DNA of 64,000 bases. Source: Hydrogenophaga sp. Lineage in GTDB: Bacteria > Pseudomonadota > Gammaproteobacteria > Burkholderiales > Burkholderiaceae_C. Positions 29,967-48,336 of this stretch are shown here, one piece after another; position 1 is the first letter of the stretch; each line of letters begins with the position of its first letter. The stretch spans positions 186,001-250,000 of the forward strand of contig NZ_JAHCKL010000004.1 in the NCBI RefSeq assembly GCF_026125785.1, given 5' to 3'. The notes below the pieces were generated by a model that was not told the origin of the DNA, ran no database searches, and was given only the letters and a program-made list of their open reading frames with translations. Both the position numbers and the translations under genes were made by a program.

Positions 29967-30010
29967 GAGGCCTGCGAGGCCCACGCGCCGCGCGTATAGT
30001 TTCGAGGCTC

Positions 30011-31681: not shown

Positions 31682-31756
31682 GCGGGACCGCGGCACAGCC
31701 CCTGTGCTACCCTGGCGGGCCGTCCCGAGGGACGCGCCAAGCCACAGGAGACCACC

Positions 31757-32905
31757 ATGCCCGGACTGCTGCCCCACGTCGATCCCGACGGCCTGCTCGA
31801 ATTCTCGGTCGTCTACACCGACCGCGCACTCAACCACATGTCGCGCCGCTTTCAAGGCGTGATGACCGACATCTCCACCATGCTCAAGCGCGTCTACGGC
31901 GCGCGCTCGGCCGTGCTGGTACCCGGCAGCGGCACTTTCGGCATGGAGTCGGTGGCGCGCCAGTTCGCCCACGGCAAGCACGTGCTGGTGATCCGCAACG
32001 GCTGGTTCAGCTACCGCTGGACGCAGATCTTCGACATGGGCGCCATACCCTCCAGCCACACCGTCATGAAGGCGCGCCGCGCGGGCACATCCGCCCAGGC
32101 CCCATGGACGCCCGCTCCCATCGCGGAGGTGGTGGAAACCATCGCCCGTGAAAAACCTGCGCTGGTGTTCGCGCCGCACGTGGAGACCGCTGCCGGCATG
32201 ATGCTGCCTGACGACTACCTGCGTGCCGTGGCCGATGCCGTGCATGCGGTCGGCGGACTCTTCGTGCTGGACTGCATCGCATCCGGCGCCATGTGGGTGG
32301 ACATGCAGGCCACCGGTGTGGACATTCTCATCAGCGCACCGCAGAAGGGCTGGAGCAGCTCGCCGTGCTGCGCCATGGTCATGCTCAGCGAACGCGCCCG
32401 CGCCGCCATCGACGCCACCCAGAGCACCACCTTCGCCATGGACCTGAAGAAGTGGCTGCAGATCATGGAGACCTACGAAGGTGGCGGCCATGCCTACCAC
32501 AGCACCCTGCCCACCGATGCCCTGCAGCGGCTGCGCGACACCATGAAGGAAACCGAGGCCTATGGCTTCGAACGGGTGCGCCAGGAGCAGATCGCCCTGG
32601 GAGGCCAGGTCCGCGCGCTGCTGGAACGCCACGGTTTTCCCAGCGTGGCCGCCAAAGGCTTCCAGGCCCCGGGTGTGGTGGTGAGCTACACCACGGATGC
32701 GGACATCCAGTCCAGCAAGAAGTTTCTCGCCGCCGGCTTGCAGACGGCCGCCGGCGTGCCGCTGCAGTGCGACGAGGGTGCGGACTTCAAGACCTTCCGC
32801 ATCGGGCTGTTCGGGCTGGACAAGTGGCACGACGTGCCCGGCACGCTGCGGCACCTGGAGCGCGCACTGGCCGAGGTCGCGCCCGGGGTGGCACAGCCAG
32901 CCTGA
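31757..32905 (+). CDS. Class V aminotransferase (alanine-glyoxylate/serine-glyoxylate type)
   Basis: PLP-dependent enzyme of 382 residues. The cofactor lysine is K197 in SAPQKGWSSSPCC, preceded by the PLP-binding DCIASGAMWVDM. The N-terminal GSGTFGMESVARQF is the phosphate-binding loop of the family. Members transfer amino groups from alanine, serine or related donors to glyoxylate or other oxoacids; the donor here is unknown. It stands alone, ahead of the catabolic region, with an AGGAGA ribosome binding site 7 bases upstream. It converges on the SnoaL-like gene with 12 bases between stops. Confidence 0.9.
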   Translation: MPGLLPHVDPDGLLEFSVVYTDRALNHMSRRFQGVMTDISTMLKRVYGARSAVLVPGSGTFGMESVARQFAHGKHVLVIRNGWFSYRWTQIFDMGAIPSSHTVMKARRAGTSAQAPWTPAPIAEVVETIAREKPALVFAPHVETAAGMMLPDDYLRAVADAVHAVGGLFVLDCIASGAMWVDMQATGVDILISAPQKGWSSSPCCAMVMLSERARAAIDATQSTTFAMDLKKWLQIMETYEGGGHAYHSTLPTDALQRLRDTMKETEAYGFERVRQEQIALGGQVRALLERHGFPSVAAKGFQAPGVVVSYTTDADIQSSKKFLAAGLQTAAGVPLQCDEGADFKTFRIGLFGLDKWHDVPGTLRHLERALAEVAPGVAQPA

Positions 32906-32917
32906 ACGCCGTAGGCC

Positions 32918-33487
32918 TCAGGCCAGGCCCAGCGCCTTGCGCTCCCGGAACACGAAGTCTTCCTGGTTGCGCTGCCCGGACTCCCAGCCCGGCACCGGCT
33001 TGGGCGCGTCGGGCGGCACCGGCACCACCTGCTTCCAGTCGGCCACCAGGGTGCGTTTGAGAATGCGCCACTCGCCGTTGCGCCGCTCGAAGCGGTCCAC
33101 GTAGCGCGAGCTGGTCAGCAGGTCCATGGCGCCGTCGGGCGCTTTGCCTCCCGCGAGCTGGGCCAGCGCCTGCGCGGCCTCTTTCGGGTACCGCTGCGTG
33201 GTGCGCACATAGCTCTCGACCAGCGCCAGATCGGGGCCGGCGAATTCGATCAGCATGTTGCTCACGGCGTGCATGGAGAACGGGATGTCACGGTGCCGGT
33301 TGCGGATCCAGTCCATCAGGCCGTCCACGCCGCCGTTGTAGGCGCCGTGGATGTCCACCGCATCCGGGTGGAACGCGGTCTTCATCAGCTCGAAGTCCAG
33401 CCGGTCCACGCTGCGGCACCAGCGGTACATGCAGTCCTGGATCTGCATCCGGTCCGCGATGCGTTCAGGTGAGTAATCGTTGTTCAT
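32918..33487 (-). CDS. SnoaL-like/NTF2-fold protein (first of two)
   Basis: 189-residue protein of the NTF2-like superfamily, which includes dehydratases, isomerases and ring-hydroxylating dioxygenase small subunits. The N-terminal IQDCMYRWCRSVDRLDFELM followed by FHPDAVDIHGAY is the SnoaL-type start, and RYVDRFERRNGEWRILKRTL is the typical last strand pair. No dioxygenase alpha subunit is nearby, so a lyase or isomerase is more likely. It is the last gene of the minus-strand nitroreductase/thiolase-like/DUF35/Bug unit. A similar protein is encoded at 40388, in the opposite direction, under the same type of operator. Confidence 0.8.
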   Translation of the reverse strand: MNNDYSPERIADRMQIQDCMYRWCRSVDRLDFELMKTAFHPDAVDIHGAYNGGVDGLMDWIRNRHRDIPFSMHAVSNMLIEFAGPDLALVESYVRTTQRYPKEAAQALAQLAGGKAPDGAMDLLTSSRYVDRFERRNGEWRILKRTLVADWKQVVPVPPDAPKPVPGWESGQRNQEDFVFRERKALGLA

Positions 33488-33536
33488 TGAGAAGCTTCTT
33501 GGTCCATGCGTGCGCCCATGGGGCGCGAGAAGTGGC

Positions 33537-34505
33537 TCACTCCGGTTGCAGGTTGGCCTGCTGCATCACCTTCGTCCAGATCGTCTGGTCGTTGGCCCAC
33601 ATGTCGGCAAACGCCTTCGCTGGGCTGGGCTTGGGCGTCATTCCCAGGCCGGCCAGCTTGGTCTGCAAGGCTGGTTCGGACACGGCCTGGTTCACCGCGC
33701 CATTGAGGCGTGCCAGCACGTCGGCCGGTGTACCGGCCGGTGCGGCCAGGCCAAACCAGGCCAGCACGTTGAAACCCGGCAGCGTTTCCGCGATGGCGGG
33801 GATATTGGGCAGCAGCGGGCTGCGCTGCGGAGAGGTCACGCCCAGCATCTTCAGGCGACCGGTGGCCACCAGCCCGTTGATGGCGTCGGATGGCGTGGTG
33901 ATGACCATCTTCACCTCGCCGGTCAGCGCGGCATTGGTGGCCTGAGACGAGCCCTGGTAGGGCACGTAGACCATCTCCAGGCCGGCCATCTGGTTGAACA
34001 GTTCGTTGGTGAGGTGGCCCAGCGAGCCGCGACCGGCCGAGGCGTATTCCAGACCGCGCGGGCGTGCCTTGGCGTAGGCGATCAGTTCGGCCACGTTGTT
34101 GGCGGGGATGACCGGGTTGGTGAGCAGCACCATGGGCGTGGTGGCGACCAGGGCCACCGAGGCGAAGTCCTTGATCGGGTCGTAGCCGGCGTTCTTGCGC
34201 ATGAGCGCGGTGGTCACCGTGGAGTTGCCGACCTGCAGCAGCGTATGGCCGTCGGGTGCGGCGTTCTTGACGTACTGGGTCCCCACGGTACCGCCCGCGC
34301 CCAGGCGGTTCTCCACCACGATGGGCTGGCCCAGGAGCCGCTGCAGCGGCTCCTGGAGGTTGCGGCAAAGCACGTCACCGGTGCCGCCTGCGGCGAAGGG
34401 CACGACCAGATGGACCTGCTTGCTGGGAAAGCCCTGCCCCCAGGCGGCACCCAGAGGCAGGGTCGAAAGGGCGGATGCGCCCAGCAGATGGCGTCGGGAA
34501 ATCAT
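33537..34505 (-). CDS. Bug-family (TTT) substrate-binding protein
   Basis: Periplasmic carboxylate receptor of 322 residues with an N-terminal RR-containing signal (SRRHLLGASALSTLPLGAAWG) of Tat or Sec type. Family features are VVPFAAGGTGDVLCR (first ligand loop), VVENRLGAGGTVGTQYV, the VYVPYQGSSQA loop and the VTSPQRSPLLPNIPAIAE block. It sits in the operon with the thiolase-like protein and DUF35 protein, suggesting capture of that pathway's substrate. The transporter subunits TctA/TctB are not nearby. Confidence 0.92.
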   Translation of the reverse strand: MISRRHLLGASALSTLPLGAAWGQGFPSKQVHLVVPFAAGGTGDVLCRNLQEPLQRLLGQPIVVENRLGAGGTVGTQYVKNAAPDGHTLLQVGNSTVTTALMRKNAGYDPIKDFASVALVATTPMVLLTNPVIPANNVAELIAYAKARPRGLEYASAGRGSLGHLTNELFNQMAGLEMVYVPYQGSSQATNAALTGEVKMVITTPSDAINGLVATGRLKMLGVTSPQRSPLLPNIPAIAETLPGFNVLAWFGLAAPAGTPADVLARLNGAVNQAVSEPALQTKLAGLGMTPKPSPAKAFADMWANDQTIWTKVMQQANLQPE

Positions 34506-34532
34506 GCTTGTCTCCTGTGTTTGACTTGAGCT

Positions 34533-34943
34533 TCAAAGTGGGCCGGCGCTGCCGCCGACTGGTCGGAATGCGGGAAAGGACAGCGCCTGGCCGTCCTCCT
34601 CCCAGGTGATCTCCACCGCCTGGCCGATGGCCAGTTGTTCGCAAGGCGCGAGCACACGCGCCAGCATGCGCGGCCCCTCCTCCAGTTGCACCAGCGCCAG
34701 CGCGTACGGCACCCGCTCGGCCAGCGCGGGCGGTGCCACGCGGCTTTGGGTGAGCGCCAGAATGCTGCCGCGCCCGCTGGCCTGGCGCCATTGCACGCCG
34801 GCCTCGCTGTAGAGGCTCAGCGGGCGGGGGTAGAACTGTGCGCGGCCGCTCGCGGCGTCCACTTGCAGCATCAGGCGGCGCTCGCGCACGCCTTGCCAGA
34901 ACGGTTCGGCCACGTCGCTGGTGTCGATGTGCTGCGGGTTCAA
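34533..34943 (-). CDS. DUF35 OB-fold protein, zinc-ribbon cysteines lost
   Basis: 136-residue partner-type protein of the DUF35 family, which usually pairs an N-terminal zinc ribbon with an OB fold and binds thiolase-like enzymes. The OB part is clear (GRGSILALTQSRVAPPALAE, VLAPCEQLAIGQAVEITWEED). The ribbon segment LMLQVDAASGRAQFYPRPLS has no cysteine where the family has C-x2-C...C-x2-C, so zinc binding is unlikely. The start is a TTG that overlaps the TGA of the thiolase-like gene (TTGA), implying tight translational coupling and equal amounts of the two proteins. No other start fits. Confidence 0.85.
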   Translation of the reverse strand: MNPQHIDTSDVAEPFWQGVRERRLMLQVDAASGRAQFYPRPLSLYSEAGVQWRQASGRGSILALTQSRVAPPALAERVPYALALVQLEEGPRMLARVLAPCEQLAIGQAVEITWEEDGQALSFPAFRPVGGSAGPL

Positions 34944-36124
34944 GATCCACGCTCCAGCAGCATCACGCTGCTCGTGCCCCAGTTGCGGGCGTAGGGAATC
35001 ACGCCAATGCCGCTGAGCATGGCGTTGCCGTGGCGCTTCACCTGGCGCGCGCCGGCCTCGCCGAACATCTGGCGCAGGCATTCCACCAGGTTCACGCCGC
35101 CACCGGCCAGGCCGGGCTGGCCGGCGGATATCTGGCCGCCTCCGGTGTTCAGTGGCAGTTCGCCGTCGTAGGCCATGTCGTGCGAGAGCACGAAGTCGCC
35201 GCCCTCGCCCGGCCCGCAGAAACCGGTCTGCTCCAGTTGCAGGATGAGCGCGATGAGAAAGTCGTCGTACCAGTGCAGCATGTGCACGTCGCGCGGCGTC
35301 ATGCCGGCGGCCTTGAAAGCACGTGGGCCGACCTCGTTGAAGCCGCTGCGCAAGAGGTCCGCGCCCTGCTCTTCCCGGGGGTCGAAGTTGATGCGCTCGG
35401 CATACGCGATGGGGTGCACCATGTGCTCGAAGCCCAGTTCACGTGCCTTGCGCGTGGACATCACCAGCACCGCGCTGGCGCCGTCGCAGCGCATCACGCA
35501 GTCCAGGATGCGCAGCGGGTCGGAGACGATCTTCGATTCCAGGTAGTCGCGTTCGGTCAGCGGTTTGCGCAGCACTTCGCAGGCGTTGTCGTTGAGCAGC
35601 GCGCCACGCCGCTGCGTCACGGCCAGCCGCGCCAGAGCCTCGTGCGGCAGGCCATGGCGCTGGTCGTACACCGAACTCAGCAGCGCGAACGCGCTCAGCG
35701 GCCCCGCGTAACCGGCGGGATCGCAGAACTCGGTGCGATGGCCCGACTGCACGGTGCGGTCCTGGGTGGACACGGCGTCGGCCGCCAGGCAGAGCACGAT
35801 CTCGCACTGCCCGGCCTCGATGGCCATGCCCGCGCGAATGAGGTTGCCCCCCGAGGAAGCACCGCCGATGTCGGTGGACTGGCACCAGGACACCGACAGG
35901 CCCAGGCCTTCGGCCAGCAGGTTGCTGTAGAAAGGATTGCCCGCTTCCGACATCGCCAGCGTGGTGGCGAAGCCGTCGATCTGGTGGCGTTCGATGCCGG
36001 TTTTCGCCAGCAGCGCGGCCACCGCCTCACCGGCCAGCGAGAGCGCGCTGCGGCCGCTGTGGCGCACCAGCTTGGTCTCGGCGTACCCGACGATGGCCAG
36101 CTCGCGCCGCTGCAGGAAGTTCAT
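34940..36124 (-). CDS. Thiolase-like (SCP2-type) protein lacking thiolase catalytic residues
   Basis: 394-residue thiolase-fold protein. The nucleophile motif CASG is replaced by GGASSG (residues 87-92), and the GHP histidine motif by GQP in NTGGGQISAGQPGLAGG. It should therefore not catalyse a normal thiolase reaction. This pattern, together with an adjoining DUF35 gene, matches Ltp2-type enzymes that act as retro-aldolases on beta-hydroxyacyl-CoA in steroid side-chain breakdown. A similar C-C cleaving role is inferred here; the substrate is unknown. It lies 10 bases after the nitroreductase gene and is translationally coupled to DUF35. Confidence 0.85.
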   Translation of the reverse strand: MNFLQRRELAIVGYAETKLVRHSGRSALSLAGEAVAALLAKTGIERHQIDGFATTLAMSEAGNPFYSNLLAEGLGLSVSWCQSTDIGGASSGGNLIRAGMAIEAGQCEIVLCLAADAVSTQDRTVQSGHRTEFCDPAGYAGPLSAFALLSSVYDQRHGLPHEALARLAVTQRRGALLNDNACEVLRKPLTERDYLESKIVSDPLRILDCVMRCDGASAVLVMSTRKARELGFEHMVHPIAYAERINFDPREEQGADLLRSGFNEVGPRAFKAAGMTPRDVHMLHWYDDFLIALILQLEQTGFCGPGEGGDFVLSHDMAYDGELPLNTGGGQISAGQPGLAGGGVNLVECLRQMFGEAGARQVKRHGNAMLSGIGVIPYARNWGTSSVMLLERGS

Positions 36125-36134
36125 CGCCGGAACC

Positions 36135-36836
36135 TCAGTCGTTGACCCAGGTCACCACCTCGTCCAGGCCTGCACGGCTGGTGCGGTAGCTGTTGGCCGG
36201 GTGGCTGGTGTCCTCGTAGCCGAAGGAGATGCCGCAGACCACCTTGCGCGCGGGGTCTATGCCCAGCAGCGACTTGGCCAGTGCGCTGTGCGAGGCCAGC
36301 GCGGCCTGTGGAATGGCGGCGACGCCATGCGCCTGCATGGCCAGCAGCAGCACCTGCACGTAGCCACCCACGTCGACGGCACCGTACACATCCAGCCCCG
36401 GATCGCTGGTCAGGATGGCCACGTGCGGCGCACCGAACAGGCGGAAGTTCTCCAAGGCTTGGCGAGCGCCACCGGCCTTGTCACCGCGCTCCACGCCCAC
36501 CGCGTTGTAAAGCTGGAAGCCGCATTCGCGGCGGCGAGCGAGATAAGGCCCGGTGTATTCCTTGGGAAAGGGGAAGTCGGCACCGCGTTGCGTGCCGTCG
36601 CGCGCGGCGTTGTACATCGCTTCGCGGAAACGCTCCACCGCCGCGCCTGAGGCAATGGCGACCTGCCAGGCCTGTGAATTGCACCAGGACGAGGCTTTCT
36701 GCGCCATCGCCAGAAAGCTCTTCTGCACGGCCACATCCACGGCCTGCGGGAGGAAGGCGCGGCAACTGTGCCGTTCGGACAGGAGCTTGTCGAGCGCGGC
36801 GGCTTCGCCAGTGGCGGAGGGGTTCATGCGATCCAT
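36135..36836 (-). CDS. Nitroreductase family protein
   Basis: FMN-dependent oxidoreductase of 233 residues. SERHSCRAFLPQAV is the typical N-terminal FMN-phosphate contact region, SSWCNSQAWQVAIASG the second, and HGVAAIPQAALASHSALAK with VVCGISFGYEDTSHPANSYRTSR the C-terminal part of the fold. It may reduce a nitro group, a quinone or an enone; the operon suggests an enone-type substrate, which is inference. It is the first gene of the minus-strand unit. A strong promoter (TTGACA-N17-TATATT, 36873-36901) lies upstream. The start could be 9 bases further in (MNPSATG). Confidence 0.88.
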   Translation of the reverse strand: MDRMNPSATGEAAALDKLLSERHSCRAFLPQAVDVAVQKSFLAMAQKASSWCNSQAWQVAIASGAAVERFREAMYNAARDGTQRGADFPFPKEYTGPYLARRRECGFQLYNAVGVERGDKAGGARQALENFRLFGAPHVAILTSDPGLDVYGAVDVGGYVQVLLLAMQAHGVAAIPQAALASHSALAKSLLGIDPARKVVCGISFGYEDTSHPANSYRTSRAGLDEVVTWVND

Positions 36837-36851
36837 GCGAAGGTGGGTCTC

Positions 36852-36901
36852 TTGATGTCTAATGGTTAGACCAATATAATGCACCCTCCAATCTCTGTCA
36901 A
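36852..36901. promoter_or_regulatory. Overlapping divergent promoters with TGGTNNNACCA operator (site 1)
   Basis: Plus-strand promoter: TTGATG (36852-36857), 17 bases, TATAAT (36875-36880). Minus-strand promoter: TTGACA (36896-36901), 17 bases, TATATT (36873-36878). The two -10 elements overlap. The palindrome TGGTTAGACCA (36863-36873) lies in the plus spacer and at the minus transcription start. TNGTNNNACNA is the usual site of FadR-type (FCD) GntR regulators. It controls the nitroreductase operon and the NIPSNAP-Bug operon. Confidence 0.8.
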
Positions 36902-36942
36902 TCTGCACCTGCCGCCGTACGGGGCCATCGAAAGGCACAGCC

Positions 36943-37260
36943 ATGATCGTCGAAGAACGCTGCTACCTGCTGCGCATGCCCTGGGGACCGCAGGAGTACC
37001 TGGCGCTCTATGAGGCAGAAGGCCTGGCGGTGCAGCGCGACACGCTGGGCCGCCTGCTGGGTTACTTCCACACCGAAGTCGGCGGCCTCAACAGCATGGT
37101 CCACCTGTGGGGCTACGACAGCTTCGAGGACCGCATGCGCCGCCGCGCGGCACTGGCGGCGGACCCTCGCTGGCAGAGCTACCTGACGCGCATCCGGCCC
37201 ATGATCGAGTCGATGAGCAACCGCCTGCTGGTGCCGACATCGTTTTCCCCCATTCGGTAA
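36943..37260 (+). CDS. NIPSNAP family protein
   Basis: 105-residue single-domain protein of the NIPSNAP (dimeric alpha-beta barrel) family. The family core is seen in YFHTEVGGLNSMVHLWGYDSFEDRMRRRAAL. Small bacterial NIPSNAP proteins are often encoded in catabolic operons, but their biochemical role is not established. It follows the operator-promoter region at 36852-36901 and precedes a Bug receptor by 49 bases, so both are probably co-expressed. Confidence 0.85.
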   Translation: MIVEERCYLLRMPWGPQEYLALYEAEGLAVQRDTLGRLLGYFHTEVGGLNSMVHLWGYDSFEDRMRRRAALAADPRWQSYLTRIRPMIESMSNRLLVPTSFSPIR

Positions 37261-37309
37261 CGGCCCGGCCGTTCCCGATCCTTCATCACCACCCACACTG
37301 GAGACACGC

Positions 37310-38305
37310 ATGACACGACAAGACCCCAAGACCACACCGAACCGCCGCATGGTGCTGGCCGCGGGCCTGGGCGCCGCCGCGCTGGGCATGGCCCCCGCGC
37401 TGCGCGCGCAGGAGGTGTTCCCCAACAAACCCATCCGCATCCTGGTGGGCGCGGGAGCCGGCGGCTCGACCGACATCACTGCGCGCCTGGTGGGCACGGA
37501 ACTGGCCAAGGTGCTTGGGCAGCCGGTGGTGATCGAGAACCGCCCCGGGGCCTCGGGCACGATCTCGGTGCAGCAGACTGTGCGCTCGCCGGCCGACGGC
37601 CACACGCTGGTGTGGGTGGGCAACAGCGTGATGGCGATCTCGCCCTTCCTGTACAAGGAGCCCGGCTACGACGTGAAGACGCTGATCCCGGTGAGCCTGG
37701 CCACGACCTCGTCCTTCGTGCTGATGGCATCGCCCGACTTCAAGGACCTCAAGCAGCTCATCGCCTATGGCAAGGCCAACCCGGGCAAACTGAGCTTCGG
37801 CTCCAACGGCGTGAACGGCAGCCTGCACCTGCTGGCCGAGCTGCTCAAGACCGAAGCAGGCTTCGACGCCCTGCACGTGCCGTACAAGGGCGGTGCCGAG
37901 TCGGCCAGCGCCGTCATGGGTGGACAGATCAACTTTTTCTTCGATGCCCTGTCCTCCAACCTGGCGCTGGCGCGCTCAGGCAAGCTCAATGCGTTGGCCG
38001 TGACCGGTTCGCGCCGCGAGAAGTCCCTGCCGGACACGCCCACCATGGCCGAGCTGGGCCTGCCGTCCATGACCACCGATGTCTTCTTCGGTCTGGTAGC
38101 GCCGCCCGGCACGCCGAGCCCTGTGGTCAACAAACTGGCCGATGCCATGAAAACCGTGCTGGCCATGCCGGCGCTGCGCGAAGCCCTCTCGGCCACGGGC
38201 AACGAGCCGCAGAGCAGCACGCCGGCGGAGTTCCGCGCCCTGGTGGACAAAGAGGCCGCACGCTTCCAGGCGCTGATCAAGGCCAAGGGCATCCAGCCGC
38301 AGTAA
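37310..38305 (+). CDS. Bug-family (TTT) substrate-binding protein
   Basis: 331-residue periplasmic receptor. The leader NRRMVLAAGLGAAALGMAP is twin-arginine-like, ending at RAQ, and the mature protein starts at EVFPNKPIRILVGAGAGGST. Further family features are VVIENRPGASGTISVQQ, DALHVPYKGGAES and the VTGSRREKSLPDTPTMAELG block. It is co-transcribed with the NIPSNAP gene under site 1. The ligand is unknown. It converges on the DUF2889 gene, and a strong stem-loop separates them. Confidence 0.92.
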   Translation: MTRQDPKTTPNRRMVLAAGLGAAALGMAPALRAQEVFPNKPIRILVGAGAGGSTDITARLVGTELAKVLGQPVVIENRPGASGTISVQQTVRSPADGHTLVWVGNSVMAISPFLYKEPGYDVKTLIPVSLATTSSFVLMASPDFKDLKQLIAYGKANPGKLSFGSNGVNGSLHLLAELLKTEAGFDALHVPYKGGAESASAVMGGQINFFFDALSSNLALARSGKLNALAVTGSRREKSLPDTPTMAELGLPSMTTDVFFGLVAPPGTPSPVVNKLADAMKTVLAMPALREALSATGNEPQSSTPAEFRALVDKEAARFQALIKAKGIQPQ

Positions 38306-38317
38306 GAAGCGACCAGA

Positions 38318-38348
38318 CAGATCGCCAGCCGGCGGGCTGGCAGATCTG
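38318..38348. terminator. Stem-loop between convergent Bug and DUF2889 genes
   Basis: CAGATC-GCCAGCC (38318-38330), loop GGCG, GGCTGGC-A-GATCTG (38335-38348) form a 13-pair stem with a one-base bulge. It fills the gap between the two converging genes. There is no T-run, so bidirectional termination or 3'-end protection is inferred. Confidence 0.65.
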
Positions 38349-38349
38349 C

Positions 38350-38946
38350 TCAGCGTTCTTCCGGTGGAACCTCGGCGCCGACCTGGGCGCCCCAGCGCAT
38401 GATGGCGGGTTCACCGCCCCGGCGCAGGCCATGGCAGCTGTTGAGCAGCGCCGGACGCGGACCGTCGTCTCTCGGCGGCAAGCCCTGCAAATGGCGCTGC
38501 CGCTCCATGGCGGGCCGTATCGACTGCAGCGCCGTCGTGGCCATGGGGCCGAGCAGTTCGGTCAGGTGGGTGCAGCCCAGCACACCCCGGAAACGCGTCT
38601 TCACCGCCTGTGAGAAGCCGGCCTCGATGCGCAGGCCGACGAGTTGTTCATAGGTGGCGTTGATTTCCATGCAGTCCGCGTAGGGTGTCTGGTGCGACAC
38701 CGCCAGCGCTTCCACGATGGTGAAGCTGTCGTCCAGCGCGATCCGCAGCGACATCAGGTGAATGGGGTCGCCGGACTTGCGCATGACCGCGTTGCCACGC
38801 ACGAACGCGGGATCCATGTCGTAGGCACGCACATCGGACAGGCGCCCCTCCACTTCCCAAAGTCCGTCCTCGCGCAGCCAACCGGTGCAGGTCACCTGCC
38901 GCGTGTGCAGCGGCGCACGCGGCTTGGGAGGCGGCAGTTCGCGCAT
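38350..38946 (-). CDS. DUF2889 domain protein
   Basis: 198-residue cytoplasmic protein matching DUF2889: LHTRQVTCTGWLREDGLWEVEGRLSD at the N-terminus and CTHLTELLGPMATTALQS in the C-terminal half, with MHLMSLRIALDDSFTI-like strands between. Family function is unknown, but members occur beside aromatic, steroid or acyl-CoA catabolism genes. It follows the CoA-transferase gene with a one-base overlap (TGATG) and is therefore translationally coupled. The conserved Cys and His in the CTHLTELLG motif are intact. Confidence 0.85.
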   Translation of the reverse strand: MRELPPPKPRAPLHTRQVTCTGWLREDGLWEVEGRLSDVRAYDMDPAFVRGNAVMRKSGDPIHLMSLRIALDDSFTIVEALAVSHQTPYADCMEINATYEQLVGLRIEAGFSQAVKTRFRGVLGCTHLTELLGPMATTALQSIRPAMERQRHLQGLPPRDDGPRPALLNSCHGLRRGGEPAIMRWGAQVGAEVPPEER

Positions 38947-40259
38947 CAGGCTTCGGCTTCGGCCTTCTTCGCGGCGGGCGCGCGCGCGCCGGAAGGCGCC
39001 GCCGCGCTCAGCGCGCCGGCAGCCCGCAGCGCGGCAATGCGCTCATCGCTGTAGCCCAGGGTGCCACGCAACACCTCTTCGGTGTGCTGACCCACCGAAG
39101 GCGCGGGCTGTGGATCGACCACGGGCGTGCCGGAGTAACGGATGGGCAGCGCCACGTTCGGCACCCAGCCGATGGTGGGATGCTCGATACGGGTGACCAG
39201 CTTGCGCGCGCGCGCCTCGGGCGAACGCAGCGCATCGCCCACGTTGCGCACCTCGCCGCAGGGGATGGAAGCGGCGCGCATGCGCGGTTGCCAGTAAGAC
39301 CAGGGTTGTTTGGCGAAGATCTCGTCGAGCATCTCGAAGATTTCCTTGCGCTTGCCCATGCGGCCGTTGCGGTCGGCAAGCACGGGATCGTTGGCCAGGT
39401 CGGGCCGTTCGATCACCTGCGCCATGAGACGGTGGAAGATTTTGTCGTTGCCGCAGTTGATGTAGAAGGGCTTGTCCGCCGACTGGAACACGCCCGAGGG
39501 GCAGGTGTCCGGGCTGGTGTTGCCATGCCGCTGAGGGACCGCGCCGGTGAAGATGTGCTGCAAGGCGGCGTAACCCGTCATGAGCACGGCATCGTCGAAC
39601 AGCGCGATCTCAATCGACTGGCCTTCGCCGGTGCGGTGGCGCGCCAGCAGGGCGCCCAGGATGGCGTTGCAGGCCATCATGGCGGTGCTGATGTCCACCA
39701 CGGGCGAGAGGGTCCGGACCCCCTGACGATCACCGTAGCCGTTCATGGAGATGAAACCGCTTTCCGCCTGGGCAATGGGGTCGAAGCCCAGGCGATCGGC
39801 GAACTCTCCTTCGCGGCCGTAGGCGGACACCGAGCAGTAGATCAGCTTGGGATTGAGCTTGCGGCAGCTCTCGTAGTCCAGGCCGAAACGTTCCATCACG
39901 CCCGTGGAGAAGTTCTCCACCACCACGTCGGCCGTTGCCACCAGCTCGCGCACGATGGCCAGGCCTTCCGGCGACTTCATGTTGATCGCGGCACTGCGCT
40001 TGTTGCGGTTGCTCCAGAGGTAGGGAGCCCCCTGGGCCGGCAGTTCGGGGTGCACCGGCGGATAGTGGCGAAACTCGTCTCCCCGGCCCGGCGTTTCCAC
40101 CTTGATCACGTCCGCCCCCATGTCCGCCATCACCATGGTGGCGAAGGGGCCGGCGATGAAGTGCGTGAAGTCCACCACACGCACGCCCTCCAGCGCCTTG
40201 GGCGCATTGGCGGGACGAGGCGTGTACGGAGGGAAGTCGGCTTCCAGGTTGTCAAGCAT
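38946..40259 (-). CDS. Family III CoA transferase (CaiB/BaiF type)
   Basis: 437-residue CoA-transferase. Family features are VVDFTHFIAGPFATMVMADMGADVIKVE at the N-terminus, SNRNKRSAAINMKSPEG, and GFDPIAQAESG carrying the predicted catalytic Asp (D160). It differs from the racemase-like paralogue at 1840 because it lacks the GHDINY/DFGGG/E set. It probably moves CoA from an acyl-CoA such as succinyl-CoA to the pathway acid. The start at MLDNLEAD is preferred (AGGA 5 bases upstream); an ATG four codons earlier is possible. It is transcribed from the minus promoter at 40313-40342. Confidence 0.9.
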   Translation of the reverse strand: MLDNLEADFPPYTPRPANAPKALEGVRVVDFTHFIAGPFATMVMADMGADVIKVETPGRGDEFRHYPPVHPELPAQGAPYLWSNRNKRSAAINMKSPEGLAIVRELVATADVVVENFSTGVMERFGLDYESCRKLNPKLIYCSVSAYGREGEFADRLGFDPIAQAESGFISMNGYGDRQGVRTLSPVVDISTAMMACNAILGALLARHRTGEGQSIEIALFDDAVLMTGYAALQHIFTGAVPQRHGNTSPDTCPSGVFQSADKPFYINCGNDKIFHRLMAQVIERPDLANDPVLADRNGRMGKRKEIFEMLDEIFAKQPWSYWQPRMRAASIPCGEVRNVGDALRSPEARARKLVTRIEHPTIGWVPNVALPIRYSGTPVVDPQPAPSVGQHTEEVLRGTLGYSDERIAALRAAGALSAAAPSGARAPAAKKAEAEA

Positions 40260-40291
40260 GTTTATCCTCATACGGCCGTCGCAATTGGGCC

Positions 40292-40342
40292 TTGCATTCC
40301 ATTGGTATGACCATTATACTGACAAGATCAACAAGCGGTCAA
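40292..40342. promoter_or_regulatory. Overlapping divergent promoters with TGGTNNNACCA operator (site 2)
   Basis: Plus-strand promoter: TTGCAT (40292-40297), 17 bases, TATACT (40315-40320). Minus-strand promoter: TTGACC (40337-40342), 18 bases, TATAAT (40313-40318). The palindrome TGGTATGACCA (40303-40313) lies one base from the plus -10, exactly as at site 1. It controls the CaiB/DUF2889 unit and the SnoaL-like/Bug/FAH unit. A shared FadR-type GntR regulator is inferred. Confidence 0.8.
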
Positions 40343-40387
40343 AGCTTTTCGCTGTTCTGACCGAAATCACCGGCACTGGAGACACAT

Positions 40388-40912
40388 TTGCCCCACAACG
40401 ACAAGGCCACCAGCGAGCTGGATTACCTGCTCAGCGTCGACGCGATCCGCCAGACCAAGGCGAAGTACTGCCGCTACATCGACACCAAGCAATGGGACCG
40501 GCTGGGCTCCATCTTCACGACGGACTGCCGCTTTGAAGGCCTGGGTTCGGCGCCACCGGGAGCCGACGTGGCGGCTTTCGTGCAAGGGGTCTCCAGCCGC
40601 CTGGCCAACACGATCTCCGTACACCACTGCCACATGCAGGAAACCGAGATGACCGGGCCGGACAGCGCACGCGTGATCTGGGCCATGGAAGACTTCGTCG
40701 AGTGGACCGATGGCGGCACCGTGAAGGAAACCCCGGGCAGCAAGGGTTTCTTTGGTTACGGCCACTACGAGGAAGAGTACCGCCGCGTGAATGGTGAGTG
40801 GAAGATTGCGTTCCTTCGCCTGACGCGCCTGCGCCTGGACCCGGTGCCAGCGGACGCGCCCGCGCCGCGCATGGGCCAACGGCAGGCCACGCCCGACTGG
40901 CTGGACGTCTGA
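40388..40912 (+). CDS. SnoaL-like/NTF2-fold protein (second of two)
   Basis: 174-residue NTF2-fold protein similar in layout to the one at 32918: IRQTKAKYCRYIDTKQWDRL, then FTTDCRFEG, and RRVNGEWKIAFLRLTRLRL at the C-terminus. It may act as a dehydratase, isomerase or aldolase on a pathway intermediate. The start is a TTG, supported by GGAGA five bases upstream and by the absence of an in-frame ATG at a suitable place. It is the first gene of the long plus-strand unit and is expressed from site 2. Confidence 0.8.
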   Translation: MPHNDKATSELDYLLSVDAIRQTKAKYCRYIDTKQWDRLGSIFTTDCRFEGLGSAPPGADVAAFVQGVSSRLANTISVHHCHMQETEMTGPDSARVIWAMEDFVEWTDGGTVKETPGSKGFFGYGHYEEEYRRVNGEWKIAFLRLTRLRLDPVPADAPAPRMGQRQATPDWLDV

Positions 40913-40940
40913 GCACGCGCCTCGCGCAGGAGAGGTACCG

Positions 40941-41912
40941 GTGCCCCACGTCTTTCGCCTCCTGCTCACCGGTCTGCTGTGCACCCTGGGCGCGCTGACG
41001 CCAGCCTGGGCGACCTACCCCGAGCGCCCGATCACCCTGGTCGTGCCCTACCCCCCTGGCAGCATGGGCACGGCCTTCGGCAACCTGGTGAGCGAGACCA
41101 TCGCGCCGGCCCTGGGTCAGCGCATGGTGGTGGAATACAAGCCAGGGGCCAACGGCACGCTGGGCGCGGCCTATGTGGCCAAGACACCGGCGGACGGCTA
41201 CACGCTGCTGATGGCAGTGAACAGCACCATGACCATCAACCCCAGTCTGTACGGCCAGTTGCCGTTCGACCCGCTGAAGGATTTCGCCCCGATCTCCATG
41301 GTGTTCACCTCGGCCAACCTGCTGGTCGTCAACGCGAGCAGCCCGGTGAAGACGGTGCAGCAACTGATCGAGCTGGCGCGCAAGCGGCCAGGCAAGGTGT
41401 TCTACGGTTCGGCGGGCAACGGCTCGACCACCCACCTCTCGGGCGAGATGTTCCGCCAGATCTCGGGCGCGCCCCTGGCGCACGTGCCCTACCGCGGCAG
41501 CGGCCCCGCCATCAGCGACCTGCTGGGTGGCCAGCTCGACTTCATATTCGTGGACACCTCGGCGCTCGCCCACGTGGCGGCGGGACGCCTGCGCGCTCTG
41601 GCCGTGACCGGCAAGACCCGACTGGCCGCCGCACCCGAGGTGCCCACCATGGAGGAAGCCGGCATCAAGGGCTTCTACGTCGACACCTGGTACAGCCTGG
41701 CCGCTCCGGCGGGAACGCCGCCCGAAGTGGTGCAGCGCCTGAGCGCCGAAGTGGCCAGGATGGTCGCATCGCCCACGGTACGCGAACGCATGCGCCACAT
41801 GGGCACCGATCCCGCCGTGGACACCCGCCCGGCACACCTGGGCGAAGTCATGCGCGCGGACACCGCACGCTGGAAAAAATTTCTCGATGGCACCCGCATC
41901 CGGCTCGACTGA
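40941..41912 (+). CDS. Bug-family (TTT) substrate-binding protein
   Basis: 323-residue periplasmic receptor starting at GTG 40941 after AGGAGAGG. A Sec-type signal (FRLLLTGLLCTLGALTPAWA) precedes TYPERPITLVVPYPPGS. The family loops MVVEYKPGANGTLGAAYVA, AHVPYRGSGPA and VTGKTRLAAAPEVPTMEEAG are intact. It is the second gene of the SnoaL-like unit, 28 bases downstream. The ligand is unknown but probably acidic. Confidence 0.92.
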   Translation: MPHVFRLLLTGLLCTLGALTPAWATYPERPITLVVPYPPGSMGTAFGNLVSETIAPALGQRMVVEYKPGANGTLGAAYVAKTPADGYTLLMAVNSTMTINPSLYGQLPFDPLKDFAPISMVFTSANLLVVNASSPVKTVQQLIELARKRPGKVFYGSAGNGSTTHLSGEMFRQISGAPLAHVPYRGSGPAISDLLGGQLDFIFVDTSALAHVAAGRLRALAVTGKTRLAAAPEVPTMEEAGIKGFYVDTWYSLAAPAGTPPEVVQRLSAEVARMVASPTVRERMRHMGTDPAVDTRPAHLGEVMRADTARWKKFLDGTRIRLD

Positions 41913-41945
41913 CACCAGACACCTTACCGACCCTTGTACCTTCCC

Positions 41946-42857
41946 ATGAAGTTCCTCACCTACACACACGCCGGAGAAAACCACCTGGGCGCCGCCACCG
42001 AGGCGGGCACCATCGTCAACCTGGGCGCGCTGCTGCGCCAGGCCCTTGGGGCGCAAGCGCCCATCCCCAGCGACGTGGCCGGCCTCATCGAGGCCGGTCC
42101 GGCGCTGCTGGAGCCAGCCCGGCGCTGCCTGGAGGATGTGGCCAGCCACGCGGCCCACCGGGCACCGGCCGATGCGCGCGTGATCGCTCCCATCCCGCGC
42201 CCGCACAAGAACGTCTTCTGCGTCGGCCGCAACTACCGCCTGCACATCATCGAGGGCAACCTCGCGGCCAAGCGCGACCCCAACGATTTCCCCAAGGCGG
42301 CCGAGTTCTTCTCCAAACCGTGGACCACCGTGATCGGCACCGGCGAAGCCATCCGCCGGCACGCAAAGCACACCCGTCTGCTGGACTACGAGATCGAACT
42401 GGGCATCGTGATCGGCAAAGGCGGCACGGACATCCCGCGCGAGACCGCACTGGACCACGTGTTCGGCTACACCATCATCAACGACGTCACGGCCCGCGAC
42501 CTGCAGAAGCGCCATGGCCAGTGGTTCAAGGGCAAGGGCCTGGACACCACCTGCCCCATGGGGCCCTGGGTGGTGCACCGCAGCGCGGTGCCCGACGCAC
42601 AGGCACTGAACATGGAACTCGACGTCAACGGCGAGGTGCGCCAGCGCGCGAACACACAGGACATGCTGTTCGACGTGCCCGCCATCATCGAACAGCTCTC
42701 CGCCGGCCTCACCCTGCACCCCGGTGACGTGATCGCCACAGGCACGCCCTCCGGTGTGGGCTTCGCCATGACACCCATGCGCTGCCTCGAACCCGGCGAC
42801 GTGGTGCGAGCCCGCATCGATGGCCTGGGCGAGCTGGTCAACCACGTCGTGGACTGA
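41946..42857 (+). CDS. Fumarylacetoacetate hydrolase family protein
   Basis: 303-residue metal-dependent enzyme of the FAH superfamily, which cleaves or decarboxylates 1,3-diketo acids and hydrates related dienoates. The N-terminal half has PHKNVFCVGRNYRLHI. The metal-binding DYEIELGIVIGKGG supplies two Glu ligands and the downstream TIINDVTARDLQ the Asp. GTPSGVGFAMTPMRCLEPGDVV closes the site. The ATG beginning MKFLTYTH was preferred over a TTG 12 bases upstream. The neighbours suggest a role in ring-cleavage or dienoate metabolism, which is inference. Confidence 0.9.
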   Translation: MKFLTYTHAGENHLGAATEAGTIVNLGALLRQALGAQAPIPSDVAGLIEAGPALLEPARRCLEDVASHAAHRAPADARVIAPIPRPHKNVFCVGRNYRLHIIEGNLAAKRDPNDFPKAAEFFSKPWTTVIGTGEAIRRHAKHTRLLDYEIELGIVIGKGGTDIPRETALDHVFGYTIINDVTARDLQKRHGQWFKGKGLDTTCPMGPWVVHRSAVPDAQALNMELDVNGEVRQRANTQDMLFDVPAIIEQLSAGLTLHPGDVIATGTPSGVGFAMTPMRCLEPGDVVRARIDGLGELVNHVVD

Positions 42858-42952
42858 GCAACCGTTCACCTCGCCCCTGAACGCTTTACCCGTCTTACTC
42901 CCCCATCCCCCACCGGCGCCATCCGGCGTCCCCATCTCGAAGGAGCCTCCCC

Positions 42953-43957
42953 ATGAACGACCCACGCAACATCACTCGCCGCGCAGCCGCCCTGCGCCTG
43001 GCCGCCATGGCCGGCGGCGCCGCCGGCATCGGCGCCTTCCCCTCCATCGTCAGCGCCCAGGCCAACTGGCCCGAGCGCCCGATCACGCTGATCGCCCCGT
43101 TCGGCGGCGCGGTGGACTTCCTGGCGCGCCAGATCGCCTTGCACATGGCCAAGACGCTCAATGGCAGCATGATCGTCGACGTCAAGCTGGGTGGTTCGGG
43201 CACCATCGGCCTGTCCGCGGTGGCGCGCGCCCAACCCGACGGCTACACCATCGGCATGGGCACCAGCACGGCCATGACCTCGGCGCCCCACCTGATCAAG
43301 AACCCGGGCTACGACGTGACCAAGTCCTTCACCTACCTGGGCCTGATCCAGACCACGCGCCAGGTGCTGGTGGTCTCGCCGGCCATGGGCGTGAACACCG
43401 TGGCCGAGTTCATCGCACTGGCCAAGTCCAAGCCCGGCAAGCTGAACTTCGGGTCGTCCGGCATCGGCAACAGCATCCACCTGGCCGCCGAGCAGTTCAA
43501 CGCGGACGTCGGCATCCAGGCGGTGCACGTGCCCTACAAGACCGGTCCGGAGACGGACGCGGCCATCATGGCGGGCGACGTGCACTACGCCTGGCAATCG
43601 GTGCCCAGCTCGATCGCGCTCATCAACAGCGGCCGCATCAAGGCGCTGGCAGTCACCGGCGACACCCGCGATGCCGCGCTGCCCAACGTGCCCTCGATCA
43701 AGGAAGCCGGCATCAACACCACGCTGCCCGACCAGCTCTTTGGCATGGTCGCCCCGGCGAACCTGCCGCCGGCGGTGCTGGCCAAGCTGAACCAAGCGGT
43801 GCAGACCATGACGGCAGACCCCGAGTTCCAGGCCATCGTGCGCAAGGGCGGCGGCACACCTTCCCAAGTGGGCGGCGAAGACTTCGCCAAGATCGTCCAG
43901 CGCGACAGCAAGCTCTGGGGCGACCTGATCAAGCGCCTGGGCATCACGCCGAACTGA
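42953..43957 (+). CDS. Bug-family (TTT) substrate-binding protein
   Basis: 334-residue periplasmic receptor with a twin-arginine-like leader (NITRRAAALRLAAMAGGAAG) ending at SAQ. The first ligand loop is divergent: APFGGAVDFLARQI lacks the usual GGxxD spacing, which could reflect a different ligand. VHVPYKTGPETDA and VTGDTRDAALPNVPSIKEAG are present. It follows the FAH gene by about 95 bases and is separated from hyuA by a repeat element, so it may belong to either unit. Confidence 0.9.
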   Translation: MNDPRNITRRAAALRLAAMAGGAAGIGAFPSIVSAQANWPERPITLIAPFGGAVDFLARQIALHMAKTLNGSMIVDVKLGGSGTIGLSAVARAQPDGYTIGMGTSTAMTSAPHLIKNPGYDVTKSFTYLGLIQTTRQVLVVSPAMGVNTVAEFIALAKSKPGKLNFGSSGIGNSIHLAAEQFNADVGIQAVHVPYKTGPETDAAIMAGDVHYAWQSVPSSIALINSGRIKALAVTGDTRDAALPNVPSIKEAGINTTLPDQLFGMVAPANLPPAVLAKLNQAVQTMTADPEFQAIVRKGGGTPSQVGGEDFAKIVQRDSKLWGDLIKRLGITPN

Positions 43958-43967
43958 AGAGGCTCCC

Positions 43968-44070
43968 CCCTGCGCCGCTGCGCGGCTTCCCCCCTCCGTG
44001 GCGCGCCTTCGGCGCTTCGAGGGGGGACGGCACCTTGGGCCGGCGGAGCCGGACCCTTGCCGCCTCTGGA
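43968..44070. repeat. Comamonadaceae-type intergenic inverted repeat upstream of hyuA
   Basis: CCCCCCTC (43989-43996) and GAGGGGGG (44019-44026) pair around an inner GCGC/GCGC hairpin, flanked by GC-rich segments (CCGCTGCGCGG on the left, GGCCGGCGGAGCCGG on the right). This layout recurs between genes in Comamonadaceae genomes. It could act as a transcription pause or partial terminator between the Bug gene and hyuA. Copy number could not be checked. Confidence 0.65.
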
Positions 44071-44100
44071 TCGCGTCGTCTCCCTCAACAACCCAACACC

Positions 44101-46197
44101 ATGAGCAACACGAACCTCACCCCCCATGACGCGCGCCTGCGCGTGGCCGTCGACATCGGCGGCACCTTCACCGACATGGCCGCCTTCGACGAAGTCACCG
44201 GCCAGCTGCTGTTCGGCAAGGCCTTGTCCACCCACGGCCAGCTGGTCGACGGCATCCAGGCCACGCTGGACAGCGCCGACATCGATCTGCGCGACGGCCA
44301 CCTGTTTCTGCACGGCTCCACCATCGCCATCAACACCCTGCTGGAGCGCAACGGCGCCAAGACCGCGCTGCTGATCACCGAGGGCTTTCGCGATATCTAT
44401 GAGATCGGCCGCGTCAACCGGCCCGATGCCTACAACCTCTTCTTCAACAAGCACGAGCCGCTGGTCAAGCGATCGCTGCGCTACGAGGTGGCCGAGCGCC
44501 TGCGCGCCGACGGCAGCACGCACAAGGCGCTGGACGAGGCCGCCGTGCGCGAGCTGGCGCGCGAACTCGGCGGCAAGAACATCGAGGCCGTGGCCGTGCT
44601 GCTGCTGCACTCCTACCGCAACCCGGCGCACGAACAGCGCGTGAAACAGATCCTGCAGGAAGAACTGCCCGGTGCCTTTGTCTGCGCCTCGCACGAACTC
44701 AGCCAGGAATACCGCGAGTTCGAGCGCGTCTCCACCGCCGTGGCCAACGCCTACGTGGGCCCGCGCGTCTCGGCCTACCTGGGCCAGCTCGAAGAGCACC
44801 TGAGCCACAAGGGCTTCGAGGGCGACTTCTACGTGGTGCAGTCCACCGGCGGCCTGTTCCCCAGCGAACACGCACGGCGCGACTGCGTGCGCATGCTCGA
44901 ATCCGGCCCTGCGGCCGGCGTGATCGGCGCGCAGGCCATCTGCGCCCAGCTCGGCATGGGCGACGCCATCGCCTTCGACATGGGCGGCACCACCGCCAAG
45001 GCCGGCGTCATCAGCGAAGGCCGGCCGCTGACCACCGGCAGCGCGCTCATCGGCGGCTACGAGCGCGCCCTGCCGATCCAGATCCCCATGATGGACATCC
45101 ACGAAGTCGGCACCGGCGGCGGCTCCATCGCCCGCGTGGAAACCGGCAACGCCCTGCGCGTGGGCCCGCAGAGCGCGGGCTCCATCCCCGGCCCCGTGGC
45201 CTACGGCCGCGGCGGCACCGAACCCACCGTGACCGACGCCAACCTCGTGCTCGGCCGCCTCGACGCCGACCACTTCCTCGGCGGCGAGCTCAAGCTCGAT
45301 CTCGCCGGCACGCAGCGCCAGATGGAAGAGCGCGTGGCCAAGCCCCTGGGGCTGGACGCCACCGCCGCCGCCGACGGCATCCTGCGCATCGCGGTCACGC
45401 AGATGTCGCACGCCGTGAAGGCCGTCACCACCGAGCGCGGCCTGGACGCGGGCAGCTTCACCATGGTGGTCTACGGCGGCGCCGGCCCGCTGCACGCCTC
45501 GGCCATCGCGCGCGAGATCGGCATCCGCAAGGTGCTCATCCCGTACGCGCCGGGCTATTTCTCGGCCTACGGCATGCTGTTCTCCGACCTGCGCTACGAC
45601 TACGTGCGCTCGGTGTTCCGCAAGCTCAACGACGTCTCCTTCGACGAGATCGAGGCGCTCTACAAAGGCATGGAAGACGAAGGCCGTGCCGCGCTCGCCG
45701 CCTCGGGCATCACGCCCGACGGCATCGTCATCGAGCGCGCGGCCGACATGCGCTACGTCGGCCAGGAACACGCCGTCACGGTCGACCTGCCCGGCGCCTT
45801 CTTCGTCGACAAGGACCGCTCGGCCATCAAGAACCACTTCGACCAGGTGCACAAGGTGCGCTACGGCACCTCCGCGCCCAAGGAGGCGGCCGACCTCGTG
45901 AGCCTGCGCGTGACCGTGCTCGGCACCATGAAGAAGCCGCCGCGCCACCACGTGGACGAAGGCGCGGCGCAGCCCGAAGCCGCCGCCCTGCGCGGCACCA
46001 AGCCGGTGTACTTCCGCGCCGGTGGCTGGGCCGACACGCCGGTCTACAAGCGCGACGCGCTGCGCGCCGGCAACGTCATCGCCGGCCCGGCCCTGATCGA
46101 AGAACACGCCTCCACCACCGTGGTCCAGCCCGGCGACGAACTGCGCGTCGACGGCCTGGGCAACCTGCAAATCGCCATCGGGAGCGACCGCTCATGA
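44101..46197 (+). CDS. Hydantoinase/oxoprolinase family protein, subunit A (HyuA type)
   Basis: 698-residue ATP-dependent subunit of the N-methylhydantoinase/acetone carboxylase superfamily. It begins with the actin-like phosphate loop RVAVDIGGTFTDMAAFDE; a second nucleotide-binding motif is FDMGGTTAKAGVISEG; and EVGTGGGSIARVETGNALRVGPQSAG is family-typical. It should phosphorylate or open a cyclic amide or carboxylate with HyuB. The ATG at 44101 begins the family sequence. The frame is open far upstream, but that is a shadow of the preceding gene. The stop overlaps hyuB by four bases. Confidence 0.92.
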   Translation: MSNTNLTPHDARLRVAVDIGGTFTDMAAFDEVTGQLLFGKALSTHGQLVDGIQATLDSADIDLRDGHLFLHGSTIAINTLLERNGAKTALLITEGFRDIYEIGRVNRPDAYNLFFNKHEPLVKRSLRYEVAERLRADGSTHKALDEAAVRELARELGGKNIEAVAVLLLHSYRNPAHEQRVKQILQEELPGAFVCASHELSQEYREFERVSTAVANAYVGPRVSAYLGQLEEHLSHKGFEGDFYVVQSTGGLFPSEHARRDCVRMLESGPAAGVIGAQAICAQLGMGDAIAFDMGGTTAKAGVISEGRPLTTGSALIGGYERALPIQIPMMDIHEVGTGGGSIARVETGNALRVGPQSAGSIPGPVAYGRGGTEPTVTDANLVLGRLDADHFLGGELKLDLAGTQRQMEERVAKPLGLDATAAADGILRIAVTQMSHAVKAVTTERGLDAGSFTMVVYGGAGPLHASAIAREIGIRKVLIPYAPGYFSAYGMLFSDLRYDYVRSVFRKLNDVSFDEIEALYKGMEDEGRAALAASGITPDGIVIERAADMRYVGQEHAVTVDLPGAFFVDKDRSAIKNHFDQVHKVRYGTSAPKEAADLVSLRVTVLGTMKKPPRHHVDEGAAQPEAAALRGTKPVYFRAGGWADTPVYKRDALRAGNVIAGPALIEEHASTTVVQPGDELRVDGLGNLQIAIGSDRS

Positions 46198-47951: not shown

Positions 47952-47952
47952 G

Positions 47953-48336
47953 ATGGACGCCGCCACCGTGGCAGCCGCCGACCCACGCGCCGCCCACCTG
48001 CTCGGCCTGTGGAGCCGCCTGAGCGCCCAGCACGTCACGCTGGGCTCGGGTTGCGGCTGCGGCGTGGGCGGGGTCAGCGTCTCGCTGCAGGACTTCGAGC
48101 TCGACATCGCCGACTACCTCTGGGCCGAAAGCGAGCGCCTGGGCGTGCACAGCGTGGAAGCCTTCCTGCTGCAGCCCGGGCCGATCCATGAACAGCCCCA
48201 GCCGGTGATGAACCTGCTCACGCGCCTGGAGGCGGGCGAGGCCGACGAGGCCGACGCCGACTGGCTGCTCACGCGGCTGGCGCGCACGCTCGAATCCTTT
48301 GCCAAGCTGCACGGCCCGGCGGCCTCCAACGGATAG
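47953..48336 (+). CDS. Uncharacterised small protein with GSGCGCG motif, in a hydantoinase-CobW cassette
   Basis: 127-residue protein that I do not recognise. It starts one base after the hyuB stop and ends 7 bases before the GTPase gene, so it is part of the operon. Visible features are an N-terminal helix, the motif [10 protein letters not shown] (C34 and C36, the only cysteines), a [17 protein letters not shown] segment, and an acidic/leucine-rich C-terminal helix. There is no signal peptide. A closely spaced Cys pair next to a CobW-type GTPase suggests a metal-binding or metal-accepting partner of the HyuAB enzyme, which is inference only. Confidence 0.75.

Follow-up and report, generated by a model that had tools for sequence, protein, structure and literature searches.

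Two divergent intergenic regions in a 64,000-nucleotide stretch of Hydrogenophaga sp. DNA (RefSeq assembly GCF_026125785.1, contig NZ_JAHCKL010000004.1, positions 186,001 to 250,000; hereafter the window) each carry one copy of the palindrome TGGTNNNACCA, which overlaps two opposed promoters. We propose that each region is very probably a single-operator divergon repressed by a GntR regulator of the FCD type, and that the four operons concerned would be co-induced together with a dispersed catabolic island. According to this model, a dimeric FadR-subfamily (FCD) GntR protein encoded outside the window would bind (A)TTGGTNNNACCA(W) over the shared -10 region and would block polymerase in both directions. 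A pathway metabolite bound by the FCD domain would release the regulator, and all four operons as well as the other operons of the island would be induced. We infer binding, repression, ligand and substrate from what was directly observed, namely the sites, the promoter letters, their conservation, the clustering in an island and the co-occurrence of regulator genes.

Architecture of the two promoter-operator regions

At both regions the promoter letters, the spacings, the overlapping -10 boxes and the placement of the palindrome (Table 1) are as a sequence-only reading of this DNA had given them. The opposed -10 boxes share 4 bp in each case, which marks both pairs as putative bidirectional promoters. 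The palindrome ends one base 5' of the plus-strand -10, and on the minus strand it shares its first T with the end of the -10. Scanning positions 30000-48000 (18 kb) for consensus promoters returned three, all at these two sites (shuffled sequences: mean 1.3, standard deviation 1.2); the fourth, TTGCAT-N17-TATACT, fell under the scan threshold, its -35 matching the consensus at three of six positions.

In one direction the final base of the -10 and the presumed start fall under the site, in the other the spacer between -35 and -10; a regulator bound there most likely blocks both directions. The sequence-only reading had assigned the operator this role; the coordinates do overlap both promoters, and the blocking itself is predicted. 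It had also argued that polymerase could occupy only one direction at a time. The geometry of that argument is sound, but in the five bidirectional promoters of E. coli studied by Warman et al. (2026, PMC12825309) competition between polymerases was negligible at basal activity. Since basal activity was too low in those cases, joint repression is a better account than competition. An activator, or a protein that activates one way and represses the other, is unlikely. Some FCD proteins, such as CitO, do activate, and for the plus promoter the site is placed between -35 and -10. It also overlaps, however, the final -10 base and, in the minus direction, the presumed start, which an activator would hardly be expected to cover.

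Conservation of the operators

The case for a shared operator is carried by conservation and not by the number of palindromes. The window holds three copies against 0.65 expected (a number reached in 4 of 100 shuffles), and the 4.17-Mb genome holds 49 against approximately 42 extrapolated from the shuffle rate. Of the 49, called genes contain 34 and intergenic stretches the other 15; throughout, genes in fetched stretches were called with a codon-usage caller, and no annotation was used. The reversed control pattern is even commoner in this genome (167 vs 49). With copies near chance and the control at this level, the palindrome count was rejected as proof of a regulon. Since most genomic copies are inside called genes, the palindrome by itself fails to predict one. 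The third palindrome of the window (14720, between genes for a Crp-type regulator and a thioredoxin-reductase-like protein by Pfam) was set aside, no in-register promoter having been found there. The joined -10/operator pattern TAWAATGGTNNNACCA has 22 matches in 147 related genomes vs six for its reversed control, and seven of the 22 fall in two genomes, the window's own (three) and that of its sister Hydrogenophaga sp. IBVHS1 (four).

Both sites recur at the same divergent promoters across Hydrogenophaga, Variovorax and Xenophilus, and they agree with the FadR-subfamily consensus TKGT-N3-ACMA (consensus from PMC4494728). Among 46 compared loci (L125-L170; CaiB 59-93% identical to that of the window), an exact site with the centre CTT, CAT or AAG lies within 350 bp upstream of caiB in 13, which are precisely those with a CaiB of at least 78% identity. 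The other 33 comprise six with TGGTTGAACCA or TGGTTCAACCA and 27 without a site there; a recount upstream of the 46 relatives gave 19 with and 27 without a site, none masked, the two site types being split by eye. On the CaiB side the site is present in 14/14 aligned sequences, the window included, with all eight arm positions invariant and none of the three centre positions; on the nitroreductase side it is present in 11/11, again with the window included, with eight of eight arm positions and one of three centre positions invariant. The latter number omits L129, L131 and L135, where there is no nitroreductase or thiolase gene. Because the arms are invariant in both sets, the design is beyond chance. 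In caiB orientation the centre reads CTT in 11, CAT in two and AAG in one of the 14 sequences; that of the nitroreductase site reads CTA, CAA or CCT.

The promoters are conserved as well. The one on the caiB side is kept in 14/14 sequences (TTGAC-N18-TATAAT in 13, N17 in one), and the -10 of the SnoaL direction has at least five of six matches in all 14, with a TTGNNT -35 at 17 bp in 6/13 relatives. All 11 sequences of the nitroreductase site have identical -10 boxes (TATAAT plus, TATATT minus). The -35 in the NIPSNAP direction (TTGNNN) stands at 17 bp in four and at 19 bp in seven of these, and that in the nitroreductase direction is TTGAC at 16-17 bp in 10/11 and CTGACA in one.

It is very improbable that no regulator is involved and that the palindrome arises from the symmetry of the -10 or by chance. 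The genomic count near the chance level and the many copies inside called genes would suit this explanation, but across 25 aligned sequences the arms do not change although the centre does, GGT-N3-ACC is no promoter element, and nine sites lie in one ~91-kb island.

In a separate observation, a more distant CaiB relative (62-65%) in Acidovorax and Hydrogenophaga (L161, L162, L164, L167, L169) has TATAATGGTTGAACCATTGAT upstream, with TTCAACC in L162. This is the same fusion of -10 and operator with another centre, and an FCD gene is nearby in L162 and L164.

A catabolic island with recurring operators

Hydrogenophaga sp. IBVHS1 has a DUF2889 ortholog of 81% identity and its four TAWAATGGTNNNACCA matches within ~60 kb. 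Its sequence was read over C1:865001-965000, where the cluster lies inside a ~91-kb catabolic island (C1:865001-956388). This island holds nine exact sites, from 867141 to 950910, all between called genes, and the genome as a whole has 51 (Poisson P 1.7e-6, the region having been picked post hoc). For seven of the nine, the orthologous promoter of the window genome has an exact intergenic site as well (Table 1); the comparison gave no exact counterpart there for the sites at 869917 and 876275. The island is contiguous in IBVHS1 and scattered over at least four contigs (C2, C23, C34, C43) in the window genome, which keeps the operators though its cluster is away from the candidate regulator gene. 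Stretches of 55-60 kb each from two Variovorax (G148, G154) and one Xenophilus genome (G150) show more operators at orthologous promoters, exact or with one mismatch. The grouping of the two regions, advanced by the sequence-only reading, is thus upheld by a single island in IBVHS1 and in these three genomes, with further operator copies at orthologous promoters.

Beyond the genes of the window, the island encodes amidohydrolases, flavin monooxygenases, FAD_binding_2 proteins, a branched-chain-type ABC transporter, CoA ligases, a Rieske protein with a LigXa-like C-terminal domain and KSTD-like proteins. NCBIfam matches under the curated cut-offs include 3-ketosteroid-dehydrogenase-like and 4-oxocyclohex-2-ene-1-carboxylate-dehydrogenase-like proteins, pentalenolactone D synthase, which is a Baeyer-Villiger enzyme, and acyl-CoA ligases; over the cut-off there is only a generic FabG-type SDR. 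Because the gene content of window and island fits it, the substrate is probably a cyclic carboxylic acid that is broken down stepwise as a CoA ester. No paper on this catabolic island was found in the literature searched.

Candidate regulators

The expectation of a FadR-type FCD GntR regulator encoded outside the window is borne out by candidates on contig C43, which combine a GntR helix-turn-helix (HTH) with an FCD domain and co-occur with the operator. The window has no FCD gene, and the only FCD match on its contig, C34:93351, lies outside it. Among 20 FCD matches in the genome one is a fusion without HTH. Six of the 19 others, which were aligned, carry an Arg both at HTH position 28 and at position 38, where residues contact G in the FadR-DNA complex (PMC4494728), and three of the six are on C43 among island genes.

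One of these, G000:C43:160091-160939 (G000 being the window genome), has both domains and the Arg28/Arg38 pair. In IBVHS1 its ortholog is directly next to the cluster, and in G148, G150 and G154 a few genes separate the two. The ortholog is 74-91% identical in all 13 site-bearing genomes, vs a best match of at most 56%, or none at threshold, in all 30 genomes whose CaiB relative lacks that site. These 30 are five plus 25 genomes (26 were searched, G154 being already counted as site-bearing), and six of them have the second site type. In their own promoters the orthologs carry the palindrome exactly in eight cases, with one mismatch in three and not at all in one (n = 12, the gene not being called in the thirteenth, L210); in L206 the 15 bases ATTGGTCTAACCATT of operator 1 recur there. 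This protein is the most likely regulator among the candidates, and it also seems to control its own gene.

We regard it as a real possibility, though not the favoured one, that several island FCD regulators, namely this protein, C43:139164-140015 and C43:133928-134671, read the same box in response to different ligands, so that the two window regions may differ in their regulator. All three proteins have Arg28/Arg38 and accompany the island. C43:139164-140015 is present in IBVHS1 and in 12/12 further stretches (uncalled in one, L238), and in 12/12 stretches an exact site separates its orthologs from the next gene, an amidohydrolase, with a one-mismatch site on the other side. Orthologs of C43:133928-134671 are 78-90% identical in the 12 genomes examined of the 13 that bear the site; for both proteins co-occurrence was counted in site-bearing genomes. 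The CaiB and nitroreductase sites differ, moreover, in their 3-bp centre. Yet the centre classes are not cleanly separated by regulator across genomes, for which reason an assignment of the two sites to two regulators by their centres was rejected, and no own-promoter site of C43:133928 was found in the window genome, in IBVHS1 or beside 12 close orthologs.

It is quite unlikely that the box serves a regulator of another family, or a PdhR- or LldR-type FCD protein with no connection to the island. The PdhR box is nearly identical, and the genome encodes three Arg28/Arg38 FCD proteins besides the three of the island on C43, but two island regulators have the box, exact or with one mismatch, in their own promoters and co-occur with it.

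Several points weigh against repression of all four operons by the product of C43:160091-160939. The -35 in the SnoaL direction is weak in the window and poor in 7/13 relatives. The compared genomes are kin and not independent, and the site-negative ones are mostly more distant, though Variovorax and Hydrogenophaga are among them, their completeness not being stated. The candidate's own operator has one mismatch in the window genome and in IBVHS1, and co-occurrence singles out no regulator, as the two other Arg28/Arg38 FCD proteins also accompany the island.

Two further palindrome regions of the window genome lie near FCD genes. At C23:305447-305579 (L047:7448-7580) two palindromes precede genes for a ferredoxin-reductase-type flavoprotein and a P450 (Pfam), with a ferredoxin and an aldehyde dehydrogenase between and after them (assigned by eye) and an Arg28/Arg38 FCD regulator in the same stretch (L047:15694-16452); this is possibly a separate regulon with the same box. 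At C12:343649 (L053:6650-6660) TGGTGACACCA stands ~230 bp upstream of an FCD-GntR gene without Arg28 and is likely unrelated or the site of another regulator.

Gene units of the window

The genes of the four units are given in Table 1. In IBVHS1 the conservation of unit 4 ends with the gene for the fourth Bug-type protein. The HyuAB genes further downstream, which the sequence-only reading had thought might belong to the regulon, were rejected as members of the conserved unit, since they are not adjacent to the cluster in IBVHS1; their position in the window is likely a later junction.

Table 1. Operators, promoters and genes of the two regions; positions are those of the window unless a contig of the window genome is named
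Feature	Position	Strand	Details
Operator 1	36863..36873	strandless	TGGTTAGACCA, minus strand ATTGGTCTAACCATT; flanked by nitroreductase and NIPSNAP genes
Operator 2	40303..40313	strandless	TGGTATGACCA, minus strand TGGTCATACCA; flanked by CaiB and SnoaL genes
NIPSNAP/Bug promoter	36852..36880	+	TTGATG 36852-36857, N17, TATAAT 36875-36880
Nitroreductase operon promoter	36873..36901	-	TTGACA 36901-36896, N17, TATATT 36878-36873
SnoaL/Bug/FAH promoter, weak	40292..40320	+	TTGCAT 40292-40297, N17, TATACT 40315-40320
CaiB/DUF2889 promoter	40313..40342	-	TTGACC 40342-40337, N18, TATAAT 40318-40313
Unit 1, nitroreductase-family protein	36135..36836	-	Pfam PF00881
Unit 1, thiolase-like protein	34940..36124	-	Pfam PF22691
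Unit 1, DUF35/ChsH2 OB-fold protein	34533..34943	-	Pfam PF01796; adjoins thiolase
Unit 1, Bug-type (TctC) substrate-binding protein	33537..34505	-	Pfam PF03401; 90% in IBVHS1
Unit 1, SnoaL_4 protein	32918..33487	-	Pfam PF13577
Unit 2, NIPSNAP protein	36943..37260	+	Pfam PF07978; no gene called there in IBVHS1
Unit 2, Bug-type (TctC) substrate-binding protein	37310..38305	+	Pfam PF03401
Unit 3, CaiB-type family III CoA transferase	38946..40259	-	Pfam PF02515
Unit 3, DUF2889 protein	38350..38946	-	Pfam PF11136
Unit 4, SnoaL_4 protein	40388..40912	+	Pfam PF13577
Unit 4, Bug-type (TctC) substrate-binding protein	40941..41912	+	Pfam PF03401; 77% in IBVHS1
Unit 4, fumarylacetoacetate-hydrolase-family (FAH) protein	41946..42857	+	Pfam PF01557
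Unit 4, fourth Bug-type (TctC) protein	42953..43957	+	Pfam PF03401; 89% at G029:C1:910346-911350 (G029 is IBVHS1)
HyuAB hydantoinase/oxoprolinase genes	44101-47951		Pfam; downstream of conserved unit
Counterparts of IBVHS1 island sites in the window genome	C2:63642, C2:32107, C23:338473, both window operators, C43:139026, C43:131741

A flavin reductase-FCD fusion and the significance of the proposed regulon

The FCD fusion mentioned above is encoded at C43:130684-131667 (L046:7685-8668, minus strand) and has a flavin reductase domain at residues 27-170 and an FCD domain at residues 192-311; no HTH was found in it. Its gene is preceded by one exact and one one-mismatch palindrome, both of which are kept in IBVHS1, G148 and G150. 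The FCD part is closest to Arg28-type regulators: C43:139164 (41%), then C43:160091, C43:133928 and C23:313759. Matches over both parts were obtained in 6/200 family genomes, its own included. The other five, putative fusions, are 46-50% identical, a stop being reported within the match in three of them. For the combination of flavin reductase and FCD domain the literature searched gave only a paper on hypothetical proteins of Exiguobacterium. In AbHpaC, substrate binding to a C-terminal MarR domain relieves self-inhibition and so activates the enzyme (PMC10816480). We tentatively suggest that one metabolite might act at two levels, freeing the FCD repressors from the shared operator and activating the flavin reductase-FCD fusion of the same regulon. 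If metabolite-activated, the fusion would be the FCD counterpart of AbHpaC, whose sensor is MarR.

Under the proposed model an uncharacterised assortment of CoA-transferase, thiolase, SnoaL, Bug and nitroreductase genes becomes a single regulon that is open to testing, has named operators and three candidate regulators, and is conserved in three or more named genera. Once its inducer is found, the FCD protein would point to the substrate of the island. The novelty is modest: a regulated set of a familiar kind, plus an enzyme-sensor fusion in the same island. The two regions would nevertheless be natural cases of one repressor-type site governing bidirectional promoters, a class called hardly studied in PMC12825309.

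Comparison with known systems

In the FadR-subfamily consensus, TKGT/ACMA, 3 nt separate GT from AC, and a site that stands singly in a divergon of this subfamily usually regulates both operons, as described by Suvorova et al. (2015, PMC4494728). The window regions resemble these divergons in having one TKGT-N3-ACMA palindrome between two divergent operons. They differ in the fusion of their site with the overlapping -10 boxes and in that the regulator gene is in neither divergent operon. The PdhR box of E. coli is (A)ATTGGTnnnACCAAT(T) (PMC7660256); arms and spacer length are the same, and each window site is one base off this 15-mer. The likeness to PdhR is one of the box, whereas the proposed regulon is a catabolic island and not pyruvate metabolism. 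With the bidirectional promoters of PMC12825309 the regions share opposed promoters with overlapping -10 boxes, and the predicted starts (seven bases past each -10) are ~21 bp apart, near the 18- and 23-bp classes of that study. The regulators described there include AcrR, SoxS/MarA, CRP and SoxR; at the promoters of the window it is instead a GntR-type operator that recurs.

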